From Candidatus Altimarinota bacterium (GTDB lineage: Bacteria; Patescibacteriota; Gracilibacteria; BD1-5; UBA6164): 42,821 nt of DNA. The translations under genes were made by a program, and so were the position numbers. Where the stretch lies: the NCBI GenBank assembly GCA_020629795.1, contig JAHDCR010000001.1, forward strand, positions 282,136 to 324,956, read 5' to 3'. This document shows, piece after piece, positions 800-27,771 of this stretch; position 1 is the stretch's first letter, and each line of letters opens with the position of its first letter. The notes under the pieces are model-generated. The model was given only the letters and a program-made list of their open reading frames with translations, did no database searches and had not been told where the DNA came from.

Positions 800-3700
800 T
801 TAAGATCAAGGAATTAGTTCATCTAAATTAGTTGATTCTAAAACTATAGAGTTAATAAGTCAGAAAATAGGGTATGACATTGTAGTCCACGCAAGAGACG
901 ACCAGTCTAAACCTCATGGATTATTGCCACTTGTGTTCTCAACAAAAAGATGATATCAAGCTCATGCAAACATCATTGGGATTGCTCCTCATCATAATAA
1001 TTCACTTCTCAATGCTGCACTATCTAATTTAATTATTGATTCTACAATTCTTTTTGGTGTAAGGACATCATGCAAAGCCCTAGCACTTACATATCTAGCT
1101 ACTTTATAAGGATATTTTAATCCAAAAGGTAAATCAGACATAAATTCATCGATTTTAATTACTCTTTCACCTGGTTTAAATCATTGTCTTATCGCGGCTG
1201 GTGAGCTTCAAGCATCAATAGTATTACGATTAATTGCATCCCCAATAGATCTACTGACTCAAGCTCCTCACATAGCATCTAGTGCTTTTGAGGCTTGAGC
1301 AGGAGATAAGTTCTCAACAGAGACTTCTCTCCATCAATTTCACTCAGTTTGTTTTAAAATTTTTCAATTATTCTGAATTTTAATACTAGCTTCTCATGGA
1401 ACAGTTATTTCTCTTCATGCAGCTCTACCTAAGGCTACTCTTTTATTAGCTAGTATAGCAGATTCTATAAAACGTAATCTATTTGCAGATGTAGATAGAC
1501 TCGTATTAATGTTCCTTGCAGCATCATCAATATTTGTAAAAATTGTTGTACTTGGTGATTCTCATCATCTTATAACAGTATACTCATTATTATTTCCTCT
1601 TTTTATAGTGTACTCACCAATAGTTGTTTCATCTCACTTTCTCAAAGCCCTAATCAATCTTTGTGTAAATGGAGTAATATCTCATATATTTTGAGAAACT
1701 GTTTCAGCTCTCGCGGCTGCATTTGGAACAGCATCATCAGCTCTCGCGGCTGCATTTGGAACAGGGGAATTAACATCTAAAGGATTTAATCGGTTTGGAT
1801 TTAGTTGAGTAACTCGATTTCAATTCATGCCATAATATTCTCTATTTTTACCATAATACGTATTTCAATTTGAATGTGTATACATTCTAATTCACTGTCC
1901 ATCAAGTGTTTGTAGAAATTCGCTTGGAGTAATGGTAAATGTTTCACCTTTTTGAGTTATAGTTACTTCACCATTTCTTATAGTAGCAGTGCTTGTCTCT
2001 CATTGTTGTTTAAAGGTAATAGTTCTCCCTTCGATTCTCGACAGACTTTCTGAAGCAATTCATGGAGTTACTCGAGCTGTTGGACGTCATGGTCATATGA
2101 ATTCTGGACTTGATCTTGCAGCCTCAACACTTGTTGGCTCTTGAGCTCTGCTTCTATTAGGTAGTCTTAGATTTCAAGCTCGAGTCGATAATGCTCAAGC
2201 TCATCTAAATGCTCAACCTAGCACAGCTCAACTCACAAATACATCTAATAACTCTTCCCAAGTTCGTCCTTCTCAGCTATCAAATAATGCGTATGCTGCA
2301 TTTTCAACTGTATAATCTATAGCAGCAAAACCAGCTCACTCTGCAAATAAAAGTTTAATAGCATTCTGTGCACCTTCACGAGTTGCTATAGCAGATAAGC
2401 CAGCTCATTCAGGTATAACTCTCATTCGTGATAGATATCCAAACATATTCCATGTTAGCCCCATCTTTATTATTTCACTATAATCATCAGCTCCTGTAAA
2501 GAGGTGTTGCCAGTCATCTCATTGTTCTAAATATAGGAAATTATTCATAGTATTCATACCCTCATAGAATGCAGTTCATTGAGCAAATCGACTTCCAAAA
2601 GTTCATACTCTTCCTAGACTATTCATTCGGTTTGCAATCATTGCTGATCGCATTGCAATTGATCAAACCTTAGCCGCTCATGCTGCAAGTGCAAATCATG
2701 CACCCATTGGAATAAGACTTACAACGATGAGTCCTGCGTTATTTCCAATCCACTCTCCTGCAGTTTGCCAGAATCCATCAAGTTTAGCAAAAAGAGTTTC
2801 ACTTGAACCATCTGATTGAGTGCTAATTCCTCGTACAATCTCTATTGAAAGTACATTCTGTGCATACATGTCAGCTCCTTGTTGTATTGCTTCATTAATT
2901 GCATTTCGCAAGTCAGTTCAACTCAGTGTTGGATCGTGTTTCAGGAGTTCATCTTCATATATTCTTCTTGTTTCTGCAGTGTTTCATTGTGCGTTTCATT
3001 CTGCCCATGCGTCACGTACATTTTCAGCATATTTATCAGTGTCTCGATTTGGTGATATGCCAAGAATATTTGCAATATCAAGACTTGAAATTCTTTCAAG
3101 ATTATCGAGAGCATATATTTTTTCGACCATTTCAGGATGAGCCTGCAGTATATCCTGGACTAGTATATCTTTAACCTTTTCAGTATTACCATCAGTCATT
3201 GCTCCAGCTGACATCAAAGACAGAAGCTCTATTTTATGAGTATCTTTATTAGTATCTGTAGCACTATCTATAAGAGCTCTAGTATCTCCAATGTTATCTA
3301 TAATATCATCGTATTGTACTCTTTCAGCTACTGCTATCTCTGAAAATAAATTATCTATAAGAGTGTTTATGGTTGTATCATCTGAATCTGCAGAATTGAG
3401 AAAATTTGAAAATAATGCATTCACATTTTCAATACTATCTTCAATCACTTTTTTATCGTTAAACAGTCACCAAGCAGTCATCATACTTGTAGCTTCTTTT
3501 TGTGCAGCATCTGTCCACACTTGTAGCATTGTTGCGAGTATGTATACTTTAGGATTTGATAGTTTTTCCTGAAGTAAGAGAAGTCTTTCTTGATCATTTC
3601 TATAATCTACAAGTTCTGAGTTGGCAACTTCTTGATCTGGTCAAATAGCTCACAATCATCCAAAGCCATTGCTTGCTGTGAATACAGGCAGTATTCATAT

Positions 3701-4561
3701 CGAGTGTGGTCAATCTATTCTATCTATAGTTGGTGCTTGTGCTGGTCTTCATGATATTCCTCATACTACACCTGCTTGTACTGGAGCAGGTCTTTGTGCT
3801 GGTCTTGGTCTAGGGCTCGGTCTTTGTGCTGGCCTAGGTCTATTAGAAGGAATAGAGGTAACTCAAGCAGGACTTGCCGGATTTTCTGCTTTTACGTAGT
3901 CAGCAGAAATGTAACCTTCTGTTCCATTAGGTAGCTTTACATGGAGAAATAGTTTTCAATTGTTACCTATTTGATGATTTGTGAGGAGAGTGAGGTTTTG
4001 TCATTGAGGGAGGTTTCAAATTTTGCTTCTTAGGTTGGAGCTATACATTCTGAGACTTGAGCTGCTATTTTTAATAGCTACCGTTACATTCGTGGTGTTT
4101 GCGAGTTGAGATTTAATAGCATTGATATCTTGTGAGTTTCAGATTGAGTCTTGAATCGTTCCGTTAATTTGATCAGCAGTAGAGTAGTTGTATTCATGCT
4201 GAGTTTGAGGTCTATTTGATGGAGCGGCAGCTAATGCATCATTGGATGTAGAAGGAGGTGTCCAAGAGCTTATGTTTCTTCAAGCAGATGGAGTGACAGC
4301 ATTTCTAGCTGGAGTTCTGTCACTATTACTGGATTGCATTCCTTGATATATAAGCATAGAATCACGTAAAGAACTAAGGGCAACTTGTGTTTCTCATCTT
4401 TTTTTTGATACTTCTTCGTTAATAGGTGTTTGTAGTCTTGTTATATCTTCTATACTTAGATTTCAAAAATCTCTTTGAAGCTTTTCAATTTCATTTACAT
4501 CTCAGGATTTTATAGCTGCCTCAGCCTCTTGGTAGCTATCGATAATATTATTAAAACTCAT
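800..4561 (-). CDS. Large (1253 aa) unrecognised protein with SH3-like domain
   Basis: The frame runs from the ATG at 4561-4559 to TAA at 802-800 and contains dozens of UGA codons read as glycine. Residues 1-150 are polar and Gln/Ser/Asn-rich. Residues about 155-220 look like a bacterial SH3 (SH3b) fold: LRMYSSNLRS near the start and GTEGYISADYVKAE at the end, the usual SH3b finish. A Pro/Arg-rich linker with repeated RPRPAQRP-type units follows (about 225-260), then a long helical region (about 300-600). Around residues 600-650 is a hydrophobic Ala/Gly-rich stretch that may enter a membrane. The C-terminal third holds a 33-bp duplicated unit (VPNAAARA twice). I do not recognise the whole protein. 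SH3b domains commonly bind cell-wall peptide, so a cell-surface or attachment role is possible but unproven. It is divergently placed from ftsX. Confidence 0.8.
1705..1764 (-). repeat. Two-copy 33-bp tandem duplication within the large protein
   Basis: A 27-bp block at 1705-1731 is repeated exactly at 1738-1764, giving a 33-bp period. It encodes VPNAAARA-DDA-VPNAAARA in frame on the minus strand. It looks like a recent in-frame duplication. Confidence 0.85.
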
Positions 4562-4733
4562 AATCGTTTTCTTAATTTATTAAATTCCTTATTACTCTAT
4601 CATATTTTTCATCAAAGGAGCAAAATATAGGACTTGACCTTTTGAATTATTTAATGAGCTTATTTGTGGTTCTATGGTTGCAATATATTTGATTCTTATT
4701 ACAATTTAGTGTAAATATCCATAAGCACCTTCT
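4562..4733. other. Divergent intergenic region between the 1253-aa protein gene and ftsX
   Basis: These 172 bp separate two divergent genes and must hold promoters for both. A TTGACC at about 4633 and AT-rich blocks are present, but I cannot assign a convincing -35/-10 pair. No RNA gene or strong hairpin is seen. Confidence 0.5.
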
Positions 4734-5645
4734 ATGCTATCACGACTCGTAAAATACGGAGCAAAAAACATCATGAGAAATACCTTTCTATCAGCTTCTT
4801 CAATACTGATATTAACACTTCTTATGTTTTTTATAAACATCCTTCTTGTACTGCATGATGTGAGTCTAAGAATTATAGACGGAGTAAATGAAAAACTCAC
4901 TATCTCACTGTATCTCGAAGAAGAATATGATAAAAATTCTGTAGAAATTATTGATTTGCAAAATGATATCAAAAGAGCAGTTCCAGAAGTACTTATTACG
5001 TATAAAACAAAAGATGAGGTTTTAGATGACCTACGTAAAACCGATCCAGAGCTAGTTGATATACTGGAGAGACAAAACCCACTTCCAGAAACCATAAGTA
5101 TTTCAAATATTCCTTTAAAATCATATGAAAAACTTAATAACGTTGTTGAGTCTAAACTCTTTGTTCTGTCAGAAAATATTGACGAAGAGAGCCTGAGAAA
5201 TAATGAAAGTTTTTCTACTTATACACGTCAATTTGAACGAATAGACAAGGTAACCTCAGTGTTAAATATATTGCAAATCTGACTTTATATTATCATAGCC
5301 ACTTTTATTGTTTCTATTGCAATTATTGTATACTCTATAATAGGAAATTTTATCTATTATTATAAAGATGAAATATATATTACGCGTCTTGTATGAGGAA
5401 GTAAACTTTTCATTTATTGACCATTTTCCTTACAAGGAATGATGTATGTAGGAATAAGTTTTATTATCTCTAGCGCTTTATTCCTTGTTTTACTTTCAAA
5501 CCTTCGATATGTATTTGAACTCTCAGAGTTTTCGGATGTATATACAGGTAACCTATCACTTGTTTTATTGATTCAAGGCCTTGTATTTCTCACTGTTGGA
5601 GCTGGAAGTGGATTCCTCTCGTCACGTCGATATCTAAAAAAATAA
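4734..5645 (+). CDS. ftsX: Cell-division permease protein FtsX
   Basis: FtsX pairs with the ATPase FtsE in the inner membrane and activates peptidoglycan hydrolases during division. The 303-residue product has the family layout: a short N-terminal cytoplasmic part, a membrane helix at about 20-42, an extracytoplasmic domain (about 45-180), and three C-terminal membrane helices. The conserved RLVGGSKLFIYGPFSLQG segment matches the FtsX loop that contacts FtsE. UGA is read as glycine at several sites, including 5281-5283 and within this loop. The start is the first ATG, giving MLSRLVKYGAKNIMRNTF, typical of the family. No ftsE lies next to it, which is unusual because the two are usually adjacent. 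The next gene starts 10 bp downstream, so they are likely co-transcribed. Confidence 0.9.
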
Positions 5646-5655
5646 ATAACTAAAA

Positions 5656-8046
5656 ATGTTTTTTAAATCCCATGGACTCTTAGGGCAAAATGCTCGTAAC
5701 CTCACATATATAAAATGAGGAAATTTTCTGCTTGCTAAAAAGTTAGCTGATTCGAAACTGACAACTAAAAAATTCCTCTCAAAACATAACGTTGCTGTTC
5801 CTGAAACCTTGCAGGTAATCAAAAAACATTCTGAAATACAGATAGAAAAAATAAAAAATTTCACTCCTCCTTTTGTAGTAAAACCAAATAACTGATACGG
5901 TTGAAAGGGGATTTTAATCTTTGATGAGATTGATGCGACCTGAAGTTTTATTACAAACTCATGAGAAAAATACTCTCCCGCAAGATTAGCTGAGCATTTC
6001 GTATATGTTTTAGATGGGTTTTATTCCCTTTCTGGAGGTCGTGATACTGTGATTATTGAAAAGAAAATAATACTTACAAAGGAGATAGAACTCTTAGGTA
6101 AATACGGACTTCCAGATATTAGAATTGTTGCGTATAACAAAGTTCCTGTAATGGCAATGATACGTATACCAACGGCAGAGTCAGATGGTAAGGCAAACAT
6201 CCATGGTGGTGCGTGTGCTGCAGGGATAGATATTGGATCAGGGAGATTGACCTATATTTCATCGAAATGAAAACTCGTAAAGTCAGTGCCGTGAATAGGA
6301 GATGTGAGAGGTATTATAGTGCCTGAATGGGATAAAATACTTTCGCTTGCTGTCTGAGTACAAATGGCTACTGGAATAAAATTTTTAGGTTGTGATGTTG
6401 TATTAGATGAAACAGATGGCCCACTGCTGCTAGAAATCAATGTACGACCAGGGCTGGAAATACAAAATGTTAACCTGGCACCTCTCAAAGCCAGGCTTGA
6501 TAAAGTAGAGTGAGTAGACGTATGAAGTATAGAAAAATGAGTACGTATAGGAAGGGATTTATTTTCATGAGATATCGAAGAAAAGATTACATCACTTTCA
6601 GGAAAGAAAATTTTGTGAGCAAAAGAATATCTCACCATATTTCACAATGATAAAACACTTAATTATATAGCTGATATTCGCGTGAGTAATAATGAAAGCT
6701 TTGTAAGTAAGGCTTTTGTTGAAGATATATTGCATATTACCATTGGAGAAAAAACGAGAGTAAAACTAGAATGTGAAATTTTAGGAATAGGAAAAACTAT
6801 AGCATTTAAAATCAGCGATCTAGAAGAGGATAAAAATTTGAGCCTTTGAAAAAATGTCTTGAAAGGCTTTCTAATAGACCCGTTTAAATATAAAAAATGA
6901 GAGAACCCAATTTTTCACTCTCTGAGTAATGAAAAGTGAAAGAATACTGCAATTACTAAAAGTAATGAGCAGCAGCTAATTTCCATAGATAAGGCTCTCA
7001 TGGATATTGATAAAAAACTGCTTATATTAAAATACTTAAATCCAATTAATGCTGAGGAGCAGAAGCAAATTTTTATAGAAAAAAAATGAGATTATGTCCC
7101 TAACTTTGAGTATAAGTCTTTTCCTCATGATTTGGATGCCTTGGAGCATGAACTAAAACTCATAGAAGTGCCAGATATACCAGTGGGTGAAATGTATGTA
7201 AGAAAGCAAGAGGAAATACATAATAAAATTAGATTTCTACGAGCTTTTGAAGAAAAAAATACCTGAGATATGACGCTCTATTCTAAAAAAGTTTTTGGGG
7301 ATATTGATGATGATAATTTTGAAATGAGTAAACAAAAAATCACTCATAGAGACAGCATCGTTCCAGAACAAGATTTCTTGAGTACTCAAGAAATCAAAGA
7401 CTACATGAAGAAGTTTAATCATATTTATGGAATCAAAGTTAAGGTGTTAGAAGCAGAATCTACGGCAAGATTTGTGATGAAGGGGGATACGCTTATGTTT
7501 AGAAAGTGAGCGATAGTATGAAAAAGAGAGATGCGGTCTATTATAGCCCATGAAATAGAGGGGCATTATCTCAGAAAAATAAATGGAAGAAAATCACAAT
7601 TCTCAATATTGTCTCGTGGAAGTGCTTGATATCTTGAAATAGATGAGGGTATTGCTATTTATAATCAAGATAGATTTATTACTCCCGTTGATAAAAAATA
7701 TTACTCTATATTTGAGAGGTATTATTTTGTCCAGTATGCATTAAAACATTCATATAAAAGACTCATAAAACACCTCGCTGAATTTTATGATGATGATTAT
7801 GAAAGAGTATTTGCATATATGTTGAGGCTCAAGAGATGATTTACTGACCCAAGTAAAGAGTGAGTTTTTATGAAAGATGTAGTATATGTGAATGGTCTGC
7901 AAAAAGTTCAAGATTATATAGAATCATGATGATCACTCGAGAGCCTGTATGTTTGAAAACTCAATATTGAAGATATACATTTACTCAAAGAAAATCCTTT
8001 CTTTGTAAAACATAAAAAAGACATAGTAATTCCATTTTCTGCTTAA
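5656..8046 (+). CDS. ATP-grasp (alpha-L-glutamate-ligase-like) / retropepsin-like / DUF1704 zinc-peptidase fusion
   Basis: This 796-residue protein appears to join three modules. Residues 1-300 resemble the RimK-related alpha-L-glutamate ligase-like ATP-grasp family: LGQNARNLTYI near the start, the nucleotide loop KPNNGYGGKG (76-85, two glycines from UGA), and the metal-binding LLLEINVRPGLEIQN (257-271). Residues about 305-415 resemble the retropepsin-like family of RimK operons, with KISDLEEDKNLSLGKNVL and KGFLIDPFKYK, but the catalytic DTGA is absent, so it is probably degenerate. Residues about 420-796 match DUF1704 (QEGLA-motif family, related to the tubulin detyrosinase MATCAP): HEIEGH at 632-637 gives the HExxxH zinc site and DEGIA at 663-667 replaces QEGLA. 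The predicted activity is adding an amino acid to a peptide end plus cleaving a C-terminal residue. The substrate is unknown. It sits between ftsX and pyrFE with short gaps. Confidence 0.8.
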
Positions 8047-8064
8047 TTCTTAAATATAATTATC

Positions 8065-9477
8065 ATGAATAGACTTATTATAGCGCTAGATAATCTCACT
8101 CCAGAACTTTTAGTTATGAAAATAAGAGAAGTATTAGAGAATAATTCTGATTTTAGAGATCAAATTGTTTTTAAAATTCATGATCTTGTATCTCTTATAG
8201 GATTTCAAGGTTTACATGATGTGCTTAAAGATATTGATTGTAAGTTAATGTTAGATCCAAAGTGGCACGATATTCCAAATACGTTAAAGAATTACTTAAA
8301 ACAGCTTCATGCATCGGGTTTATGATCAAAAGTTGAGTATATCACAATTCATACAAGTTGATGAACAGATATGCTTACAATGGCATTAGAAACTAAAGAT
8401 GAATTATTGCCACACGTGAAACTTTTATGAATCACAGCACTCACCTCTCTGGATGATGAAGATACTTGATATATTTTTGATGCGACAGCACAGCACTCAG
8501 TTTTAAAGCTTGCAAAAATAGCGCTAGATCTAGGGATAGAATGACTTGTATGTTCAACACATGAATCAAATATACTAAGATGAGTATTTGGAGAGCATTT
8601 TGAAATTGTAACTCCTTGAGTTCGGTTTGCGTGAGAGTCAGCATGAGATCAAAAACGTGTAATGACACCAAGTGATGCTATTATAAATGGATCAACACAT
8701 ATTGTAATGTGAAGATCTATACTTTGATCTAATAATATATCTCAATCAGTAAATCAGTTTTTCAGTGAAATACACAATCAAAAATATATAAATACTCACT
8801 GATTTAGATATGAAAAAATGTTATACACTGGTGATTGGAAAGATGTCCTATCTTATATTTGAGCATTTTACTTTCGACCAGAAGGTTGAAAATATGTGAG
8901 GTTTACCTCAAAAGTTCTATCTAATGCTTATATAAATATAGGAGCAATAGAGAGAAGCTATTGAGTTGTAGATAGGGCTTGTAGCGAACTTGCTAGTCAG
9001 ATACGTGCAAAAAACATTATTGCTGATGTAGTAGTAGGAGCTCAAATGTGAAGTGTGAGAATTTCATTATTTTTAGCTAAAAAATTAGGAATACAGCAGT
9101 CTATATACACAGAAAAAACAGAAAACAATAACAATAATATGGCCCTAAAACGTCACTCGATTGATCTCACATGAAAAAGAGTTATTATTTCTGAGGACAT
9201 TGTAAGTCGAGGAACAACAACTGCAAAAATGAGACAAGTACTAGAGGAGCTGTGAGCTACAGTGGTCGCTATAGCATGCGTATGAAATAGATATGAACAA
9301 AGCTCACAAGATTGAGTCCCAATTATTAGTTGTTTTGTGCCACCTAAGTTTGAGCTGTATTGGGATGACAATACTCCTGCAGATCAAAGAAAAGATTTTC
9401 CAAGACTCCCACAATGAGCAGTTGTTTCAGAAAAACCTAAAAACGACTGGTGAGAATTAGTGGAAAGTATGAGGTAA
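8065..9477 (+). CDS. pyrFE: Fused OMP decarboxylase / orotate phosphoribosyltransferase (PyrF-PyrE)
   Basis: The 470-residue protein would carry out the last two steps of de novo UMP synthesis: orotate + PRPP to OMP, then OMP to UMP and CO2. The N-terminal half is OMP decarboxylase with the catalytic DPKWHDIPNT motif (64-73) and, later, TPGVRF, the phosphate-binding end of the barrel. The C-terminal half is a type I phosphoribosyltransferase with the PRPP loop VIISEDIVSRGTTT (about 373-386). The order is PyrF then PyrE, the reverse of animal and plant UMP synthase. Many glycines are UGA. The ATG lies 18 bp after the ligase/peptidase gene, so it probably shares that transcript. No other pyrimidine de novo genes are visible apart from pyrG, so the organism may salvage orotate. 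Confidence 0.92.
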
Positions 9478-27483: not shown

Positions 27484-27771
27484 TTAAGCATCAAGGTTTA
27501 CGAACATATATCTCCAGATGTTAACATCTAGGTTGAAAGGACTGTTCATTCCTTTAATAGCTTTTCCATCAAGTTCAAGTGTCCACAGTATGTAGTGTCC
27601 AGTTTCACTTCATTTAATTTTATATGCGAGTTTCTTATCACCCCATACATTTTCATTTACTACTTTTGCACCTGCGTCACTGAGTAGTTTTTTGATTCCA
27701 TCAATACTAGCATTGAGAGATTCTTCTCCTGCTTCTGGATTGAGGATTACCATTAGTTCATAATTTGCCAT
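27484..27771 (-). CDS. rpsF: 30S ribosomal protein S6
   Basis: The 95-residue product starts MANYELMVILNPEAGEESLN and contains WGDKKLAYKIKGSETGHYIL (UGA glycine at KGS), the S6 core that contacts S18. It ends with NIWRYMFVNLDA. It is the first gene of the operon, with a clear promoter upstream. Confidence 0.96.

Follow-up and report, generated by a model that had tools for sequence, protein, structure and literature searches.

Among the closest described systems is the Rlo operon of Pseudomonas, which encodes a secreted retropepsin (RloA), a 7TM protein with an inactive transglutaminase domain (RloB) and an ATP-grasp enzyme (RloC), and in which the effects of losing the RloA proteases are rescued when rloB or rloC is lost as well (PMC12239564). 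Writing and erasing of C-terminal glutamates is also the task of RimK and RimB, sometimes joined in one chain as the RimBK hybrid; RimK adds Glu to the C-terminus of RpsF and RimB removes it (PMC11957791). The tubulin cycle likewise combines an ATP-grasp ligase (TTL) with a peptidase (MATCAP/TMCP) at an acidic C-terminal tail, where human TMCP1 requires Glu beside the terminal residue and chains of Glu are shortened by either TMCP (PMC10499314). A pairing of DUF1704 with an ATP-grasp protein occurs in the rhizobial QEGLA cluster (N-formylglutamate amidohydrolase, QEGLA and a glutathione-synthase-like ATP-grasp).

Here, we describe a bacterial protein that joins an ATP-grasp ligase, a degenerate retropepsin and a MATCAP domain in one chain. 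With the Rlo operon it shares an RloC-like ligase, the RloA fold and an RloB-like partner, and the gene order 7TM then ligase also occurs among its relatives. It differs in that its retropepsin is fused, cytosolic and apparently dead, with a MATCAP domain added, and in that the partner, whose ectodomain is PKD-like where identified rather than a transglutaminase, ends in Glu-Glu (-EE) and is unlinked in this genome (G000); Legionella has rloA, rloB and rloC as consecutive genes, and an rloA-rloB-rloC operon with a secreted active retropepsin was not found in G000. RimBK resembles the fusion in uniting writer and eraser, but carries an N-terminal RimB with an active aspartic protease, whereas the fusion starts with its ligase, has lost the aspartic site and would use a zinc peptidase. 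To the tubulin cycle the likeness is one of homologous peptidases (HExxxH, EG motif and a KRG...D-S...F-KD-VY...G block), acidic tails and ATP-grasp ligases, and it is an analogy only, given that the fusion is bacterial, is a single polypeptide, is not proposed to act on tubulin and contains an RloC-type rather than a TTL-type ligase. The rhizobial cluster has a different ATP-grasp family, no retropepsin and no fusion; one CPR gene row (L124:2013-9420), consisting of 7TM, ligase/retropepsin, MATCAP, N-formylglutamate amidohydrolase and a 493-aa gene, joins the rlo-like and rhizobial arrangements. Both the families and the idea of pairing a writer with an eraser are known, while the fused architecture, the change of eraser and the -EE correlation did not turn up in the literature consulted, which included searches on ATP-grasp with DUF1704, KIAA0895 or N-formylglutamate amidohydrolase but did not extend to Iyer 2009 (PMC3268129).

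The gene occupies positions 5656-8046 (plus strand) of the window, by which we mean the whole 42,821-nucleotide stretch analyzed, and encodes 796 residues followed by TAA when TGA is read as Gly (table 25). The standard code was tried and rejected, since a table 11 reading places 26 internal TGA stops in this interval, all of which become Gly codons under table 25, and near relatives likewise read TGA as Gly. Among named contigs, those most similar belong to Candidatus Gracilibacteria MAGs; G000 itself is 1.1 Mb in 22 contigs and 95% complete. Under this code, the coordinates, strand, length and motifs given in an initial annotation of the locus are correct, and the three-domain architecture that it proposed is borne out by translation, Pfam, NCBIfam and AlphaFold2 models, making a fusion of ATP-grasp, dead retropepsin and MATCAP virtually certain. 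The full-length model, built from 76 sequences, has a mean pLDDT of 88.8 and a pTM of 0.52, with uncertain relative placement of the domains, and a signal peptide is not apparent. Downstream lies a pyrFE-like gene (8065-9477, plus; named from sequence reading), a neighbor in close relatives only. The window also encodes a 1253-aa protein at 800-4561 (minus), of unassigned kind with a weak bacterial SH3 match, and large minus-strand proteins are encoded upstream of ftsX in many relatives too.

The RimK/RloC-type ATP-grasp domain spans residues 14-285 (5695-6510, plus), as defined by Pfam, NCBIfam and fold. Pfam ATPgrasp_ST (PF14397) matches this segment with E = 1.5e-52 (179 bits; cut-off 31.4), and the best NCBIfam family by far is TIGR02291, "alpha-L-glutamate ligase-like" (E = 6e-63), although the score of 212.7 bits falls under the equivalog cut-off of 314.2, compared to 436 for Legionella RloC; by these scores the domain is a divergent, RloC-type relative of TIGR02291 and not a certified equivalog. 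The TTL profile PF03133 reaches 21.6 bits, across a 39-residue stretch. In an alignment of 76 relatives, K76, P77, N78, G80, G82 and G83 of the nucleotide-binding loop KPNNGYGGKG (residues 76-85; 5881-5910, plus) are invariant, as are E260 and N262, the expected Mg ligands, in LLLEINVRPG (residues 257-266; 6424-6453, plus). Among solved ligases the fold is close to RimK (5zct, Z 17.6 over residues 7-288; AlphaFold2 model, VIA-align), which would be in keeping with RimK-like modification of the ribosomal protein bS6. We give this reading next to no credence, since the ligase scores under the RimK-family cut-off and the bS6 of the window (27484-27771, minus; named from sequence reading) ends in VNLDA, without a terminal Glu.

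Residues of about 316-410 (6601-6885, plus) form a degenerate, RimB/RloA-like retropepsin according to hhalign and fold. Pfam returned no direct match for this part of the fusion, and a profile of the domain matches the PDB weakly (9g58, E = 0.034); the identification therefore rests on a bridge through unfused homologues, whose intact DTGA domains align to it with a probability of 99.8 (hhalign, E = 1e-29) and connect to RloA, together with the fold. Because the match list of the whole model was filled by ATP-grasp and MATCAP entries, residues 296-420 were folded alone (pLDDT 84), and this model matches Lpg0085 (2pma, Z 12.5) and RloA (9g58/9g59, Z 11.9/11.8), with Ddi1 lower at about 9-10. 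Alignment to the DTGA homologues places R342-V343-S344 (6679-6687, plus) at the catalytic D-T-G, whereas the C-terminal signature LG..L..FLIDP is retained. As the initial annotation had suspected of a middle segment without DTGA, the domain is thus, by model and alignment, a retropepsin fold that lacks the catalytic D-T/S-G and is predicted to be dead. The loss is general, with D[TS]G kept in 8 and DTGA in none of 85 fused proteins. A disordered linker (residues 420-434, pLDDT under 50; 6913-6957, plus) leads to the C-terminal domain.

The MATCAP/DUF1704 gluzincin carboxypeptidase domain covers residues 440-796 (6973-8043, plus), on the evidence of Pfam, phmmer, profile and fold. PF08014 matches residues 473-779 (E = 1.5e-31, 110.2 bits; cut-off 27), and TIGR02421, "QEGLA", matches with E = 1e-37 and 129.9 bits, under its equivalog cut-off of 338.65, so that the domain appears to be a divergent relative of that family and not the equivalog itself. 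By phmmer, residues 626-778 align to human KIAA0895L/MATCAP through HEI..HYLR, through the EG motif and through a KRG..D.S..G.F.KD.VY..G block; a profile of the 76 relatives matches the MATCAP structure 7z5g (3e-29), and in the AlphaFold2 model residues 458-796 superpose on 7z5g with Z 24.2 (277 aligned, 2.6 A; VIA-align). H632, E633 and H637 of the HExxxH zinc/catalytic motif HEIEGH (residues 632-637; 7549-7566, plus) are invariant in the 76 relatives, and so is E664 of DEGIA (residues 663-667; 7642-7656, plus), the presumed third zinc ligand by comparison with the EEG motif of MATCAP (PMC10499314). The two folds that the initial annotation had left to structure prediction, a zincin around HEIEGH and an ATP-grasp within residues 1-300, are therefore both found, and the invariant catalytic residues at both ends of the chain make it very likely that both terminal domains are catalysts. 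The same genome encodes two stand-alone MATCAP-domain proteins, at G000:C9:139707-140186 (L002:1255-2868, minus) and G000:C16:20472-20912 (L003:1360-2634, minus), one with HEIESH...EEGLA and the other with an altered HETTHF. At one locus (L046) another MATCAP-domain gene (537 aa) directly follows the fusion gene, and a search of phages for MATCAP gave a single weak match.

Matches to the fusion query occur in 79 of 118 relatives and in 122 of 380 genomes of the phylum, outside the class mainly in the unfused ligase-retropepsin form. Eighty named loci carry the fusion, mostly in Gracilibacteria, Peregrinibacteria and Peribacteria; by its spread, the fusion is ancient and class-wide in Gracilibacteria/Peregrinibacteria and not a one-off, and, with L149/L150 and L151/L152 outside the main clade, the tree indicates that it arose, or was transferred, two to three times. 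In CPR outside the class, the ligase and the middle domain make up a protein of their own, typically of 425-515 aa; PF05618 matches 17 of 18 aligned proteins of this kind, and their profile matches RloA structures (2e-8) and RimK. DTG is present in 31 of 36 sampled unfused proteins and replaced by NTG/NTS in the other five (L125-L129). MATCAP is a near-neighbor gene at 10 of the 36 loci, and DTG is lost at five of these ten versus 0/26 of the others; in each of the five DTG-less cases the adjoining MATCAP has an intact motif. On the ligase tree, DTG was lost on about four branches, each of which has MATCAP either fused or as an adjacent gene, an association for which the independent-pair test has too few pairs and is not significant. 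With its RloB-like gene partner, the system is a CPR variant of the Rlo/Rim writer-erasers, one in which MATCAP seems to have replaced the aspartic protease. Two further proteins (L141:1908-4673, minus; L142:3218-5782, plus) combine ATP-grasp and active retropepsin with large C-terminal extensions, which in L141 include a second ATP-grasp domain.

An RloB-like 7TM protein (PF14402), in many cases bearing a PKD domain, is encoded directly upstream of the ligase in 37 of 40 sampled CPR loci and next to most Peregrinibacteria-type fusions. Across the 118 genomes it was found in 72 of the 77 with a ligase-containing match, compared to 1 of 41 without, and G053, one of the five apparent absences, proved on a more sensitive search to have a 7TM ending in -EE. 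In G000 the 7TM gene is unlinked (G000:C10, L169:2059-3612) and encodes 517 aa (PF14402, 58.1 bits versus 25; NF052267 RloB, E 1e-9); a PF05618 search of this genome gave no match. The predicted architecture, in which a signal peptide and an ectodomain precede a membrane part of several helices (seven, going by the family) and a basic tail, suggests that the C-terminus is cytosolic, a side assigned from hydropathy and positive charge. By sequence reading, a sugar-phosphate-transferase-like gene stands beside the own-genome 7TM gene and a glycosyltransferase-like gene near it (L169:591-2057 and 4519-5622).

In the clade reading TGA as Gly, the 7TM gene is mostly unlinked and the gene upstream of the fusion is ftsX, in 15 of 15 loci plus the window, where it occupies 4734-5645 (plus) and is separated by a 10-base gap. 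From this location the initial annotation had raised FtsX, or another division protein encoded beside the fusion, as a target. The proposal did not hold up and now appears very improbable: the adjacency is kept in this clade only and is not seen among Peregrinibacteria-type fusions, FtsX tails are basic or neutral (YLKK, in full RRYLKK, in the window; YIKTL), and across genomes it is the 7TM gene, not ftsX, that goes with the fusion and alone has -EE.

The tail of the own-genome 7TM reads -RFREIVRSMEE, and its Glu-Glu end is shared by 98% of the 7TM proteins of MATCAP-type systems, linked or unlinked, versus 1 of 30 at DTG-retropepsin loci. It is present at 59 of 61 fused linked loci, in 4/4 loci (5/5 with L129) that combine a dead retropepsin with an adjacent MATCAP, and in 40 of 41 7TMs of the TGA clade, though these are mostly unlinked to the fusion. 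A further set of CPR 7TMs, 12 of them with DTG confirmed, has it in 0 of 18, and proteobacterial tails also lack it (Legionella AKARS, Aeromonas GKDK). Other proteins of the same loci end in -EE in 11 of 887 cases. Because -EE is constant although anywhere from 8 to 28 residues separate the last conserved motif from the end, the pair is anchored to the 7TM terminus. Exceptions are a fused locus ending in KQN (L098), a fused locus with a single E (L152), one -EE tail beside DTGE (L135) and an 87% complete genome (G009) with the -EE protein in which the fusion was not found. The sole exception in the TGA clade, G021, has a 7TM ending in -SE, an ATP-grasp protein that stands alone and a retropepsin with intact DTGA whose N-terminus is hydrophobic; of 60 relatives it alone gave a PF05618 match, and a search of G021 for MATCAP found none. 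Its operon of 7TM, ATP-grasp and DTGA retropepsin (G021:C45; L212:72-3686) is, going by its motifs, a natural swap of eraser type.

An -EE end could also be an artefact with no bearing on the substrate, produced by common descent or by a ribosome-binding site that lies inside the last codons of the upstream gene; at some linked loci the last codons do abut the next start, and most -EE proteins come from one clade. We consider this improbable, as the TGA clade keeps -EE with its mostly unlinked 7TM gene, DTG operons with this gene order do not have it, L125-L129 and L151 have gained it next to unrelated linkers, and G021 has lost it. The unlinked genes and the same-order DTG operons rule out the ribosome-binding-site origin specifically. 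As to ancestry, the tree implies about 5 tail changes and 4 DTG changes, and independent-pair sign tests, which have low power here, are not significant; since most -EE rows are related by descent and independent events are few, the association of -EE with eraser type is strong in counts but carries little weight in a formal comparative test.

Together, these data lead us to favor, with a probability of roughly 0.58, a Rim/Rlo-type enzyme that would both write and erase a tail by itself, its preferred substrate being the -EE end of the 7TM partner. The ATP-grasp domain would ligate one or more amino acids to the C-terminal carboxylate of a peptide tail, and the MATCAP domain would strip residues singly from the same kind of end; that both act on one tail is probable. 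The dead retropepsin, once the eraser, may have been kept as a tail-binding or spacing module, likely as a tail reader. The substrate would be the short cytosolic tail, with its encoded Glu-Glu, of a 7TM encoded elsewhere in the genome, and writing and trimming past -EE would tune the state of a membrane protein that belongs to the envelope or the osmotic response. Because TMCPs require Glu and RimK adds to a Glu already at the C-terminus, we favor the version in which one enzyme reversibly tails the 7TM -EE, and the odds that this tail is the one acted on are slightly better than even. Glutamate is the most likely residue to be added, a tentative choice made by analogy. We infer the activities, the shared substrate, the added residue and the physiology from sequence. 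The idea put forward in the initial annotation, reversible C-terminal tailing akin to the tubulin tyrosination cycle, is supported as an idea, as a formal parallel with predicted activity.

Against the 7TM tail as substrate stand the CPR systems with a cytosolic retropepsin and no -EE, which must either act on something else or do without this primer. Secretion of the Rlo protease in P. aeruginosa likewise leaves it unable to trim a cytosolic RloB tail (PMC12239564). These two points keep alive a different scheme, in which the enzyme makes and trims a free or carrier-bound (poly)glutamate or other small peptide that is exported or sensed by the 7TM, with -EE docking the retropepsin-derived domain; indeed, -EE could be a docking site and not the modified end. 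When RimB stimulates it, RimK produces poly-alpha-Glu in free form (PMC11957791). With RloA extracellular and RloC predicted to be cytosolic, passage of the rlo product through the membrane, with RloB, is conceivable, and the channel of RloA is positively charged, for acidic substrates (PMC12239564). We nevertheless regard the free-peptide scheme as unlikely, if worth keeping in view, since -EE follows eraser type and not the retropepsin fold, the partners of DTG proteins being without it.

The substrate might instead be an envelope glycan or cell-wall peptide, to which the ligase adds amino acids that MATCAP trims. The best Pfam match, ATPgrasp_ST, is named "sugar-transfer associated ATP-grasp", which together with the sugar-related genes around the own-genome 7TM gene, the penicillin-binding-protein and glycosyltransferase genes that adjoin some homologues, and the wall-like phenotypes of rlo mutants (PMC12239564) speaks for such a role. 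Yet these neighbors differ among lineages, an enzyme with no apparent signal peptide would reach cytosolic precursors only, and -EE is left unexplained, which makes an envelope substrate a poor prospect overall.

The reading of a tail writer and eraser at the 7TM terminus ties three families of which little is understood, RloC ligases, RloB 7TM proteins and bacterial DUF1704/QEGLA proteins, together in a single scheme, and names a short candidate substrate, the C-terminal -EE tail. In its broadest form, which we put at somewhat below even odds, a CPR tail code would operate in which a single enzyme carries out reversible ligation and MATCAP trimming at the encoded Glu-Glu of an RloB-like protein, recognition of acidic tails by MATCAP would not be confined to tubulin, and a metallopeptidase would repeatedly have taken the eraser role from a retropepsin. 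If true, this would provide a function for the bacterial relatives of MATCAP and a cycle in bacteria to set beside that of tubulin tails, and it would offer a way into the phenotypes, in envelope and antibiotic response, of the Pseudomonas rlo genes.
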